Positions 1 through 7,900 of a stretch of DNA of 41,298 nt are shown piece after piece (position 1 is the stretch's first letter; every line of letters starts with the position of its first letter). This stretch comes from an uncultured bacterium. Lineage in GTDB: Bacteria; Bacteroidota; Bacteroidia; Sphingobacteriales; Sphingobacteriaceae. Where the stretch lies: NCBI GenBank assembly GCA_903828245.1, contig CAIKLP010000026.1:1-41298 (forward strand), in the 5' to 3' direction. Below the pieces are notes generated by a model. That model did not search any database. It saw only the letters and a list, made by a program, of their open reading frames with translations, and had not been told where the DNA came from. The translations under genes were made by a program, and so were the position numbers.

Positions 1-519
1 AACAAATTTGTGCTCCGAATTTGCATATCCAAATTAGATTACGGGAGCAGCATTATAGTCGATATGCGAATGGTCATCAGATCTATCAGTAATTGGTTTC
101 TTAGGTTGAACTAATTTGCCTATATATACAGCAGTTGAATTAGTACCAACTTTTAAAAGGTCATTAAGGTTTTAGAGTTAATCAGTTAGATCCTTTGAAT
201 TATCAATAAGAGTGTTAAACATCTCAATTTTGTTATTCCATTCCAAATTTTTATCATCCAGTATTTTTTAAGCCTTCTCCTCATCAGCTAATTTTTTCTA
301 ATGTTTCAACTGATTGGCTCTAACTGTAGATTAGACTTGTTATTCTGTAACGGCTTAACGTTATGTTTAGGAAACGTTAAGCAACCACTTTCCGAGGAAA
401 TCTACTGGGTTTTATGGGTTTGTTTTATACAAAAATGCCATTCCTTTTGCAATTACTTTGCCGATTTCATCAGACTTTAAGTATTCTGCATCTGAAGTGT
501 CGTGGTCTATATTTGCCAT
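1..519 (-). CDS. Ciliate nuclear gene (TAA/TAG = Gln): Dpy-30 motif, radial spoke protein 2-like, 3' end off the left edge
   Basis: Read with TAA and TAG as glutamine, the minus strand is open for 173 codons from the ATG at 519-517 to the window edge. Ten TAA and one TAG fall in frame, there is no TGA, and only three Gln codons are CAA or CAG. Residues ~17-50 form a Dpy-30 dimerisation/docking motif (NPQNPVDFLGKWLL at 34-47). Residues ~51-115 are rich in Q, K, E and N and look like a coiled coil. From ~118 (STAVYIGKLVQPKKPI) a globular domain begins and is cut by the edge. Dpy-30 followed by GAF is the known arrangement of flagellar radial spoke protein 2, so an axonemal role is inferred. With the standard code the region is riddled with stops and looks like noise. 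No intron is needed. Dpy-30 and the code are quite certain; the RSP2 identity is tentative. Confidence 0.88.
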
Positions 520-561
520 TTGAATTTTATTATTATTACAAAAATTTGAATAAAATAATAT
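520..561 (-). promoter_or_regulatory. Ciliate subtelomeric 5' leader between telomere and ATG
   Basis: These 42 bases are almost pure A/T (TATTATTTTATT next to the telomere on the minus strand, then AATAATAATAAAATTCAA before the ATG). Hypotrich ciliate nanochromosomes are known to have very short, AT-rich untranslated ends between telomere and gene, so this stretch must hold both promoter and leader. No other gene signal is visible. Confidence 0.75.
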
Positions 562-585
562 GGGGTTTTGGGGTTTTGGGGTTTT
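562..585 (+). repeat. Hypotrich ciliate telomere, (G4T4)x3
   Basis: The plus strand reads GGGGTTTT three times without a mismatch. The first 20 bases (562-581, G4T4G4T4G4) equal the known double-stranded telomere length of Oxytricha- and Stylonychia-type macronuclear chromosomes. The following TTTT (582-585) is either the first bases of the 3' G-strand overhang or shared with the bacterial lolA sequence. Polarity is correct for a chromosome end: the G-rich strand runs 5' to 3' out of the ciliate gene. Euplotes has the same repeat, but it does not read TAA/TAG as Gln and its duplex telomere is longer, so a stichotrich-type ciliate fits best. Confidence 0.93.
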
Positions 586-755
586 GCAGCAGGATTTTCA
601 AGTGTATAGGCAAAATCTACGGTAATAGATTTATAACTTTTATATTTCACACTTACGCCAGCTAAAATAGCATTGGCTTTTTTATCTACTTGTGCAAAAC
701 CAAAATTTACTTGTAAAAAAATTAAAGCGATTATTATAAGACTACACTTTCTCAT
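586..755 (-). CDS. lolA: LolA-family outer-membrane lipoprotein carrier, truncated at the ciliate junction
   Basis: Only the first ~57 residues remain: a signal peptide (MRKCSLIIIALIFLQVNFGFA, cut before Gln) and the LolA N-terminus (AILAGVSVKYKSYKSI, then DFAYTLENPAA). LolA is a periplasmic chaperone that carries lipoproteins to the outer membrane; family members are about 200 residues, so three quarters of the gene is missing. The frame stays open to 507, but after Ala the codons AAA CCC CAA AAC CCC are just the telomere repeat translated. The start at 755 gives a clean signal peptide; an ATG at 773 would add six residues. It lies 24 bp behind ftsK, a gene order common in Bacteroidota, which supports the family call despite the short remnant. 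Confidence 0.75.
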
Positions 756-779: not shown

Positions 780-3383
780 TTAAGATTTGTTGTTATTAAT
801 AATGGTATTGATATGCTGCTCCAAAGAATACTCGTCTTTAATGAGCACCTCTCTGGCTTTAGAGCCTTCGAACGGACCCACAATACCAAAGGCCTCTAGT
901 TGATCAATAATTCGACCCGCACGGTTATAACCTAATTTTAATTTTCTTTGAATTAGTGAAGTGGATCCTTGTTGGTGCATCACAATTAATCTTGCAGCAT
1001 CTTCAAATAAACTATCTCTTTCGTCAGGATTAAAATCTTTTGAACTTCCTTCGGCAGTTTCATCTACATATTCTGGCAAAATATGCGCACTGGCATAGGC
1101 CCTTTGTGAGCCAATAAACTCCGTAATTTTTTCTACTTCTGGTGTATCTACAAATGCGCATTGCAATCGAATAATATCACTGCCTGTAGATAAAAGCATA
1201 TCGCCTCGACCAATTAATTGCTCCGCTCCTCCTGCATCTAAAATAGTTCTCGAATCAATTTTAGAACTTACCCTAAATGCCAAACGACCCGGAAAGTTTG
1301 CTTTGATGGTTCCAGTAATTACATTCACAGAGGGCCTTTGCGTAGCAATTACCAAATGAATACCAATAGCTCTTGCTAATTGGGCTAACCTTGCAATTGG
1401 CGTTTCAATTTCTTTACCAGCAGTCATCATTAAATCGGCAAACTCATCTATTACCAAAATAATATAAGGTAAATAACGATGTCCTTCTTGTGGATTTAAT
1501 TTACGGCCAATAAATTTAACATTGTATTCTTTTAAATTTCTTACATGTGCGTCTTTTAATAACTCGTAACGCTGATCCATTTCTATACACAATGAATTTA
1601 AAGTATGCACTACTTTTTTCGTGTCGGTAATAATTGCATCACCATCACCTGGCAATTTTGCCAAGAAATGTCTTTCAATTTTTCTAAATAAAGTTAATTC
1701 TACTTTTTTAGGATCGACCATCACAAACTTAATTTGCGATGGATGTTTTTTGTATAAAAGAGAAATCAATAAAGCGTTTATACCAACCGATTTACCTTGA
1801 CCCGTTGCCCCAGCCATTAATAAATGGGGCATCTTAGCCAAATCCACAATATATACTTCGTTTGAAATGGTTTTACCTAAAGCAATGGGTAAGTCCATGG
1901 TAGTGGTTTGGTATTTCTCGGAAGCCAATACCGAACGCATCGAAACCATTTCTGGATTTTGATTCGGTACTTCTATACCAATAGTTCCTTTACCCGGAAT
2001 TGGTGCAATAATACGAATACCCAAAGCAGATAAACTCAAGGCAATGTCGTCTTCTAAATTTTTAATTTTAGAAATACGCACACCAGCTGCAGGAACTATT
2101 TCGTAAAGCGTAACTGTTGGACCAATCGTCGCTTTAATTTTTGCAATGTCAATATTATAATGTCCAAGTGTTTCTACAATCCTATTTTTATTGCGCTCTA
2201 ATTCTTCTGTGTTTACGGCAATTTTACTGCTCCCATAATTTTCTAATAAATCGAGGGTTGGGTATTGATAAGAAGATAAATCGAGGGTTGGATCGTACTC
2301 GCCTAATTCTTTTACCAAGTTTGCCGCTAATAAATCGGTATCGGTCGGGCTTCCAATTTCTGGAGTAGCTTCGGGTGCTACAATAGCCATTTCTAAAGGA
2401 ACTTCTTCCGCTTCAATTGGGTTTGGTTTTTTATACGAAACTGTTTCGAAAGCCTCTTCTTCCGATTCGGTTTCGGGTTCAGAATCCATTTCGCTCATTA
2501 GCTCCATGCTATCTTCTGCCTGTTTTAAAACCGGCATTTGTGCTTCGTTCAATGGTTTATTTAAAATTGGAAACTCCACCGAGGTAGGTTTTGCTTCAAA
2601 TTCTGGCTTAATTAATTCTGCTTTACGATTGGCTTCTACAGGCAATAGGGCTTCTTCATCTAGTGTATCAATAATTTTCTTTTCAAGCTTTTTGATAGGC
2701 GATTTAAATTCAAAATTATAAGCGATGACTAAACAACTTATTCCAGCAAATATCAATAAACCTGCAGTTCCAATTTTACCTAATATGGCATTTAAAAAAG
2801 CATTGATGGAAATGCCATAACCACCGGCCAAAAAGTAATAATCTGTTTGAATAAAACTAATGATGAAACCAATAGTGGCAGAGATGAAAACCAATAGGAA
2901 TAAGGAATAGGCGATACTTTTAGAAATATTTAATAAAGCAACTTTAAATAAAATTCTAAAGCCTAATAGAAAAAAAGTAAATACAAATATAAAAGAAGCG
3001 ATGCCAAACCATCTGTGAATAAAAATATGCGAAATTAATGCACCTGTTATGCCAAGCCAATTTTCTACTTTATTGTTTTGGGCATCAAAAAGAATATTAA
3101 GGCCAGCATTGGCAACCACACTTTGGTCATCTTGCCAGGTTAATAAAAAAGCACAGAAAGCAACAAAGAAATAAAGTGAACATAGTAATAAAAGTAAACC
3201 CGATATTTTAACAGCGCGTCCGTCGGTAAAGAAATCTAAAAAAGAAAAAGACTTTTCTGTTTGCTTTGCTTTTGCCGCATTTACCTTCTCCGATTTTTTA
3301 GGCGCAGAATTTGCAATCGAAACGGGTTCCGATTCTTGCTCCTGTATCTCTGTTGGTAATGGTGATTTTAATTTATTAGCCAT
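780..3383 (-). CDS. ftsK: DNA translocase FtsK
   Basis: 867-aa septal DNA pump that clears chromosome ends through the closing division septum and directs dimer resolution. The N-terminal ~60 residues are charged and cytoplasmic. About four membrane helices lie in residues ~60-226. An acidic, Glu/Pro-rich linker (~230-380) is followed by the RecA-like motor with Walker A (GATGQGKSVG, near 525-535) and Walker B (ILVIDEFADLM, near 640-648). The last ~65 residues are a winged-helix gamma domain that reads KOPS-type orienting sequences. Length and layout are normal for the FtsK/SpoIIIE family. A TATATTTG element lies 17 bases upstream of the start; lolA follows after 24 bp and is probably co-transcribed. 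Confidence 0.96.
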   Translation of the reverse strand: MANKLKSPLPTEIQEQESEPVSIANSAPKKSEKVNAAKAKQTEKSFSFLDFFTDGRAVKISGLLLLLCSLYFFVAFCAFLLTWQDDQSVVANAGLNILFDAQNNKVENWLGITGALISHIFIHRWFGIASFIFVFTFFLLGFRILFKVALLNISKSIAYSLFLLVFISATIGFIISFIQTDYYFLAGGYGISINAFLNAILGKIGTAGLLIFAGISCLVIAYNFEFKSPIKKLEKKIIDTLDEEALLPVEANRKAELIKPEFEAKPTSVEFPILNKPLNEAQMPVLKQAEDSMELMSEMDSEPETESEEEAFETVSYKKPNPIEAEEVPLEMAIVAPEATPEIGSPTDTDLLAANLVKELGEYDPTLDLSSYQYPTLDLLENYGSSKIAVNTEELERNKNRIVETLGHYNIDIAKIKATIGPTVTLYEIVPAAGVRISKIKNLEDDIALSLSALGIRIIAPIPGKGTIGIEVPNQNPEMVSMRSVLASEKYQTTTMDLPIALGKTISNEVYIVDLAKMPHLLMAGATGQGKSVGINALLISLLYKKHPSQIKFVMVDPKKVELTLFRKIERHFLAKLPGDGDAIITDTKKVVHTLNSLCIEMDQRYELLKDAHVRNLKEYNVKFIGRKLNPQEGHRYLPYIILVIDEFADLMMTAGKEIETPIARLAQLARAIGIHLVIATQRPSVNVITGTIKANFPGRLAFRVSSKIDSRTILDAGGAEQLIGRGDMLLSTGSDIIRLQCAFVDTPEVEKITEFIGSQRAYASAHILPEYVDETAEGSSKDFNPDERDSLFEDAARLIVMHQQGSTSLIQRKLKLGYNRAGRIIDQLEAFGIVGPFEGSKAREVLIKDEYSLEQHINTIINNNKS

Positions 3384-4932: not shown

Positions 4933-7900
4933 TTAAAAAGACCTTACAAAATCTAACTTTCTTTTCATTGCAGAAATACTAAAAGGAGAATCTCCTTTGG
5001 TTTTTTCTGTTAATATTTTATTGAAATCGGCATTCGAAGAAATAGCTTCCATTTGACCTTGGCGGAAAGTATATAAATACCATACATCTGGTGTTATTTC
5101 AAAATAAATATTCAGCACGTTTCCACTTCTCTTTCTCACAATTTCCACATAGCCTTTGAATGTTTTATTAATTGTTTTATCATAACTACTCATGATGCCA
5201 ATTTTATCGGTAGTAGAGCGCCACGACCTGCGTGTTTGATCCCATGCCATTTGTGCGTCTGAAATAACCAAACCGCTGTTAAATAACTTAGGTAAATTAT
5301 AAGGACCACCTTGATGTAAAGCATTTAAAAATTTATTACTTTCTTTATCTGGTAAAAGTTCTGCGATGGCCTTATCAAAAGCGGGTCTATCTTTACGGTC
5401 TTGATCGGCTTCATAGCCATTTAAATCGATGTCTTTGTGCATCAATAGGGTCGCCTCTTTTAGAAACTCAAAATCTAATGCAATCACTAAATCTACCGTA
5501 GATAAATTCTCAGTAACTTTACTGCTCACATTTCCGGCACTCACTATTTTTAATTTAGATCCAAAATCTACTCCTAAATTTATTGGTCCTTCTGCAAAAA
5601 CGGTTTCGTTTTCCTCATCAAAAGTATAATATGCTCCTTTTAATACCGAATCGTAGAGCTTATCGGCTTGTGCAATTTTAAATAACTTTTGCTCTTCGTC
5701 GTATATCAAACTGCCTTCTACATTGAGCACATCCACATCGTTTGGTTCAATTTTCTTGCTCAAGAAGGTGCCATATGATTCGTAATTGGTAATGCCGATA
5801 TGCACCCCAGATGCAATTTTATTTTTATTCTCATCACGCGGATCGTTGATGGCTAGTTGAACCGTATCTGGATTAATGAATCCTTTATACCTAAAATATT
5901 GCGATTGAATGACCGTACTTTTAGTATTTACTTTTACAAAACCATCGTAAGCTAGGTAAGGATTTGCAGCGCGTAAATACACATCGCCTTTATATTTTAA
6001 TTTCGCATTCAATAAAAATTGCATGCTATCTGCAATTTGTCCTTTACCTAAAGTGGCAAAACCAGAATCTACTTTAATTTCGTTGAAATGAATAATTTGC
6101 CCAAGCGTATCTTTCTTTGTTTTATAGGCATAATAGGCATTGGCATTGTATTTCCTTCTGGCATATATATCCACTTTGGCATCAAATAATTCGTGGTATT
6201 TGGTTTCTACGTTTGCTATAATTACAGCAGAATCTAATCGCCTAATAATTGCATCACCAAATATTTCTACATGCGCATCGTGTGGTCTAATTTCGGCATC
6301 CGCCACCCTAATTTTTTCAGCCCCATCAATTTTTAAATCGACCGATCGTAAATTATATAAAGCATGATCTACTTCGAAATGTAAAGAATCTTGTAATGGA
6401 TGGGTAGAAATAAATGAATAGGCATCTGCTGGTGTATTGCCTTTAGCAAAAGTAATTTGTTGTAAATCGAAATACCAAACAAACTCGGGTAAAGTGGTTG
6501 CGTAATTATTCGCAGGAAACTTCACCAAACCATTACGCTCATTGGTTTTAAAGCTGCCTAGTTTAGCAATAAAATCAATTTTTGACTGTACGTTACCGGC
6601 TTCTAATGCCAGCTTGGTGGTATCTATTGCATTAATTTTGGCAATACTTTGTGCCGCTGTAAAATCATCTGGATTAAATACAAAATCGCGAGAAAAAATA
6701 GCAGCGCCTTTAATATTCGACCAACCATTTCCATTCAGGGCCGTAGGCGTATAACAAATCGTTCCATTAAAATTATTTTTACCCACATACAAATCTGTTG
6801 GAAAAGCTAAACTTTTCACAAACATACTGTCTTCGTAAGGTTCCCAATGCATATAAGATTGAATGGATTTAGCCAATGGATGCGTTGCTTTTCTTTTTAA
6901 ATCAAATCGATCAATGGCCGCATTCATCGAATCCAATAAAAACAAAAATTGATCCGAAATAGTAACTGAAGCTAAATAATCTATTTTACCTTTTCCATAT
7001 AAGCCTTTATCACTTAAACGAATTTGATTCTCGTAAGTGCCTTTGCCTTTATACAAAGGATAACCGCCTTGAGGCGCATAGGTAACAAAACCCAGCGAAG
7101 TATCGGGTTGATAGGTTAAAGTCTCGTCAAAGTCGGGAAATATACCTCCTGAATGAAAATTTCCAGGGAAGGTTAAACCAGCCGTCGAACTAATGTCGTC
7201 CAAGCTGTCTATCATGAAAGGATTAATTTTAAAATAAAAATCGGCTCGCCTATATACGCCCTTTTGAACATATGGGTAATCGTAATACACGTAAGAAACA
7301 CTGTTTGCTTGAAACAAAGGATATTGAGAATATTTTTTTAGGCCAGATTTATTGTCCATATCATCGATGTATAACACACCATCGATATCTCTCAATACGG
7401 TTTTTAAACTAATTAATTCTTTTTGTCCATTAAAATTTTCTTTACCCAATACTTTAATTTTCATCGAATCAACTTTTGGCATATCGATGGTAAAGCGATT
7501 ATAATTAAAAGTAAAATTGGTGCCATAAAAATCGAGCGTTCCGGCATGTACCTTTCCGCTAAACTCCATGTCTCTATTGGCTTTCACCTTTAAAACACCT
7601 GCGGCTGGACGAATATTTACACTTTGCGAATCGCTTAAAAATATTTGCGACACCCCTACTATATCTAAATCTTTGTTGAGTAAATTTAACCTTGCATTGA
7701 TACTTTGATCCGACAAAGAAGCAAAACGAATCACATCATAATCCAATTTACCGGCTTCATTTTTTATATAATTGAACGTTTTTTCTTTCACATAAATCCA
7801 ACCACGGTTTTCGTTCAAACCTATATAACCCTCTGCAAGTAATGATCGTAGCAAACCAATCACATCTTGCTCTCTTAATTTTACAGCAGCAGCATAACTA

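Follow-up and report, generated by a model that had tools for sequence, protein, structure and literature searches.

The window analysed here, 41,298 nucleotides in length, is the entire contig C26 of a 1.95-Mb bin of 99 contigs (completeness 99.45%, contamination 2.44%), from a bacterial genus that we infer to belong to the Bacteroidota. The following features lie side by side at its left end:

1..519, minus strand: 5′ part of a ciliate gene for a Dpy-30-domain (radial-spoke-RSP2-like) protein, with TAA/TAG read as glutamine, truncated by the contig start (open frame, Pfam, best solved relative and homolog on contig L059)
520..561: AT-rich leader of 42 bp, the spacer between gene and telomere (direct reading; PMC7858049 for short leaders)
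562..581, plus strand: telomere, exactly G4T4G4T4G4, 20 bp, its 3′ end towards the bacterial DNA (direct reading and motif search)
582..585: TTTT common to the telomere repeat and bacterial lolA, with the junction inside it or at its edge (alignment with contig C21 and relatives)
582..755, minus strand: truncated lolA with its start codon at 755; of about 220 codons, the first 57 remain (full-length in relatives and on C21)
780..3383, minus strand: ftsK, intact, upstream of lolA (Pfam)

It is evident that positions 1-561 are ciliate DNA and that positions 562-581 are its telomere, in the correct orientation. The minus-strand frame opens with an ATG at 519 and continues through base 1 for 173 codons if TAA and TAG are read as glutamine. 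It contains 11 in-frame TAA/TAG codons and no TGA, and the bacterial code would close it 11 times. The encoded protein scores 25.5 bits against the Pfam Dpy-30 model (PF05186; cut-off 22), and among solved structures it comes closest to RSP2, an axonemal radial spoke protein. Contig L059, which is telomere-capped and filed in a Dojkabacteria MAG, encodes a homolog that shares 42% identity with the window's protein over 175 aligned columns and has glutamine opposite four TAA codons of the window, two of them being TAA in both sequences. The assignment to a ciliate chromosome with its own telomere follows from the Dpy-30 motif, the code 6 frame and this homolog with glutamine at TAA, which together bear out the earlier claim of a gene readable in the ciliate code alone. 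The 42-bp AT-rich leader noted earlier is confirmed as well. A search of plasmids for a homolog of the ciliate protein found none. A euplotid origin (TGA as cysteine) was rejected, since the 11 TAA/TAG codons require code 6. The glutamine codons, the G4T4 telomere and the very short leader are all as in the nanochromosomes of spirotrichs (Oxytricha, Stylonychia and Halteria; PMC7858049, PMC3558436), in which short leaders are usual (PMC7858049) and of which Halteria has a G4T4 telomere of 20-28 bp (PMC7858049, PMC3558436). The chromosome in the window differs from these in being truncated at base 1.

The telomere motif GGGGTTTTGGGG gives two overlapping matches at 562-581, against 0.01 expected by chance, so a chance G/T repeat was discarded as the source. 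This 20-mer has no other copy in the bin, and among 395 genomes sampled from the phylum the window is the sole match. As on spirotrich nanochromosomes with C4A4/G4T4 ends, the 3′ end of the G-strand points outward, away from the ciliate gene, and here it faces bacterial DNA. In the alignment with the genus relatives, bacterial homology begins at 582, where the relatives read AATTTTTGCAGCAGG and the window reads GGGGTTTTGCAGCAGG. Therefore, the telomere is 20 bp long and the TTTT at 582-585 is common to both sides. The preliminary description had extended the telomere to 585 and started the lolA frame at about 586. Its observation is right and its coordinates are correct within 4 bases: the polarity and an exact G4T4G4T4G4 at 562-581 hold, whereas TTTT at 582-585 is also bacterial, and lolA, on the minus strand, has its start codon at 755 and breaks off at 582-586, with homology reaching 582. 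That an intact nanochromosome tip is followed by broken bacterial DNA beyond its telomere is confirmed by the telomere polarity and the truncated lolA. A random position in bacterial DNA reads TTTT with a frequency of about 0.02; thus template switching, with annealing at TTTT, accounts for the junction as well as blunt ligation does, and the latter is not clearly favoured as the in vitro route. The overlap of k-mers in an assembler requires more than four common bases. Since the four common nucleotides are too few for this, a chimeric molecule is likely to lie behind the junction, rather than a graph error alone.

The bacterial locus reads through in other genomes. The alignments of all five genus relatives with the window begin no earlier than base 582, and in each relative a single contig spans ftsK, lolA and further sequence, with lolA as a full-length open frame (217-223 codons). 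Within the bin, the rest of lolA is found only on C21 (62 kb), which carries an intact lolA and stays colinear with the relatives over more than 11 kb. Its overlap with C26 is 510 bp long and shows 91.4% identity, which indicates two haplotypes there; hence the unjoined locus is present on C21 and in five relatives, but C21, whose haplotype in that region is only 91% identical to C26, is no proof of an intact lolA in the strain of C26. Positions 1-546 of C21 (G000, L029) differ from a species of the genus (G005) at three sites (99.4% identity), and many differences are found further on. We have placed the haplotype switch in the conserved 110 bp at 437-546, and the equivalent of the C26 junction (about 511-514) falls inside it. 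C21 is thus a strain mosaic within one bin. Because the switch on C21 and the departure of C26 from bacterial sequence occur at one conserved stretch, an assembly break among co-occurring close relatives is suggested. The ciliate part of C26 ends at the contig end, with no second junction on the contig; bacterial DNA therefore flanks it on one side. The segment was not found elsewhere in the bin or the genus, and no further ciliate DNA was recognised in the bin by code 6 frames, at the starts of 80 other contigs or at the far ends of 20. Those of the top-scoring contig starts that were inspected resembled clusters of tRNA genes, intergenic sequence or normal bacterial genes.

A scan of 84,980 species genomes, and of viral contigs, with the telomere 20-mer returned at least 131 stretches, many of which are ciliate chromosomes, complete or in part, that had been placed in bacterial bins. 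Among the matches listed, about 17 other contigs consist of a ciliate part, an outward telomere and bacterial DNA beyond it (L030, L033, L035, L046, L049, L053, L066, L075, L093, L095, L110, L124, L130, L131, L134, L139 and L158), so that such joins recur between unrelated partners. The bacterial partners include Planctomycetes, Beijerinckiaceae, Chitinophagaceae, Chloroflexi, Melioribacteraceae and others. Natural bacterial G4T4 repeats (Microcystis, Saprospiraceae, Shewanella) were excluded from the count of joins. In all but one of the joins among the matches listed (L075), the ciliate part runs to the contig end. Six contain complete nanochromosomes with two telomeres (L049, L093, L095, L130, L134 and L158), and in these the other telomere ends the contig, leaving bacterial DNA on one side only. 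Four have short ciliate tips of 131-301 bp (L033, L053, L066 and L030), recognised mainly by the telomere and base composition. Pfam searches of sampled joins supported one or both sides, with Vps26, a papain protease and MRP-L47 on the ciliate side and trigger factor and transketolase on the bacterial side. The exception, L075, holds a ciliate nanochromosome for 5S rRNA at 5281-5743, complete at 463 bp and bearing both telomeres, flanked on one side by DNA of a Chloroflexi bin and on the other by 82 bp that match nothing in the other sequences compared.

Several of these joins closely resemble the window. Those in L035 (Beijerinckiaceae, on a 592-kb contig), L093 (Melioribacteraceae), L130, L134 and L095 likewise comprise a code 6 gene, a telomere and bacterial genes; their ciliate part forms the contig end, and their telomeres measure 20, 28 or 36 bp. 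They differ in having other ciliate genes and other bacteria, and several retain both telomeres of the nanochromosome. Among the matches listed, 59 of 91 telomeric contig ends are exactly 20 bp long, a count from a 20-bp search pattern to which shorter ends are invisible. Telomere length was rejected as proof of blunt ligation: the count fits a double-stranded telomere of 20 bp and is biased by the pattern. Telomere-capped, ciliate-like contigs were also noticed in three species-representative MAGs (Paceibacterota, Chloroherpeton and Dojkabacteria): JARLIC01 (L036, L037, L078, L090, L097, L101, L135 and L136), DYPF01 (L039, L055 and L106) and PWFU01 (L059 and L138). The Anadelfobacter sociabilis assembly has telomere-bearing contigs (L077 and L104) that read best if TGA encodes a residue, as it does in Euplotes. 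Internal G4T4-like repeats in Shewanella, Saprospiraceae and Microcystis (L038, L040, L072, L112, L116 and Microcystis loci) look unrelated to telomeres.

These results could best be explained by a chimera from library preparation, amplification or assembly, to which we give a probability of about 0.96. Under an insertion, bacterial DNA would be expected to flank the ciliate part on either side, whereas the joining of fragment ends predicts the pattern seen. The sample would have contained a spirotrich-type ciliate, whose nanochromosomes would supply very many free DNA ends, together with several closely related species from a single bacterial genus. A nanochromosome end and a sheared bacterial fragment may have been joined in vitro, either through ligation during end repair or through a template switch at the 4-nt TTTT. 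The assembly graph would have branched at the lolA stretch conserved between co-occurring relatives; the true continuation of C26, into lolA as on C21, would then have been assigned to a different haplotype, and the chimeric molecule would have led the extension of C26 into the nanochromosome. Embedded telomeres of this kind have a precedent in PacBio reads of Oxytricha trifallax, in which chimeras with an internal telomere and unrelated DNA beyond it were treated as artefacts and removed by filtering (PMC6937825). Unlike the window, where the partner is bacterial DNA in an assembled contig, those PacBio reads join ciliate chromosomes to one another.

It is very improbable, by contrast, that end joining in vivo placed the nanochromosome of a ciliate, host or neighbour, in lolA of one strain, as a real capture of eukaryotic DNA by a bacterium. 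The clean junction within otherwise normal bacterial sequence would agree with such an event, as would the absence from the assembly of the rest of lolA in the C26 haplotype. However, the second junction is absent, lolA is uninterrupted in the relatives and on C21, and the insertion would cut LolA short at codon 57. In Escherichia coli, LolA is an essential protein, which also counts against in vivo end joining, though E. coli is not this genus. Comparable joins recur in many unrelated bacteria. The preliminary description had named a chimera as the simplest explanation, which the relatives, the read-through on C21 and the recurrent joins strongly support; its other suggestion, natural capture, is without support for the same reasons and because the ciliate part lies at the contig end in all but one join. 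It is just as doubtful that one strain living with a ciliate carries the nanochromosome in lolA and that free ciliate chromosome ends are recurrent DNA donors to bacteria. Less probable still, and indeed refuted by the L059 homolog and the genetic code, is a natural bacterial G/T repeat beside an AT-rich stretch, with no ciliate DNA at all. Internal G4T4-like repeats do exist in some bacteria (Microcystis, Saprospiraceae), but the Dpy-30 motif lies above its cut-off in a frame with 11 TAA/TAG codons, the homolog on a telomere-capped contig has glutamine opposite four TAA codons, and the relatives are without the ciliate segment.

The join is therefore almost certainly without biological importance, having been made in vitro or in silico. 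Its meaning lies in quality control: nanochromosome ends are repeatedly joined to bacterial contigs in public MAGs, GTDB species representatives among them. A search with the G4T4 20-mer flags such joins and would keep them from being taken for gene transfer from eukaryote to bacterium.
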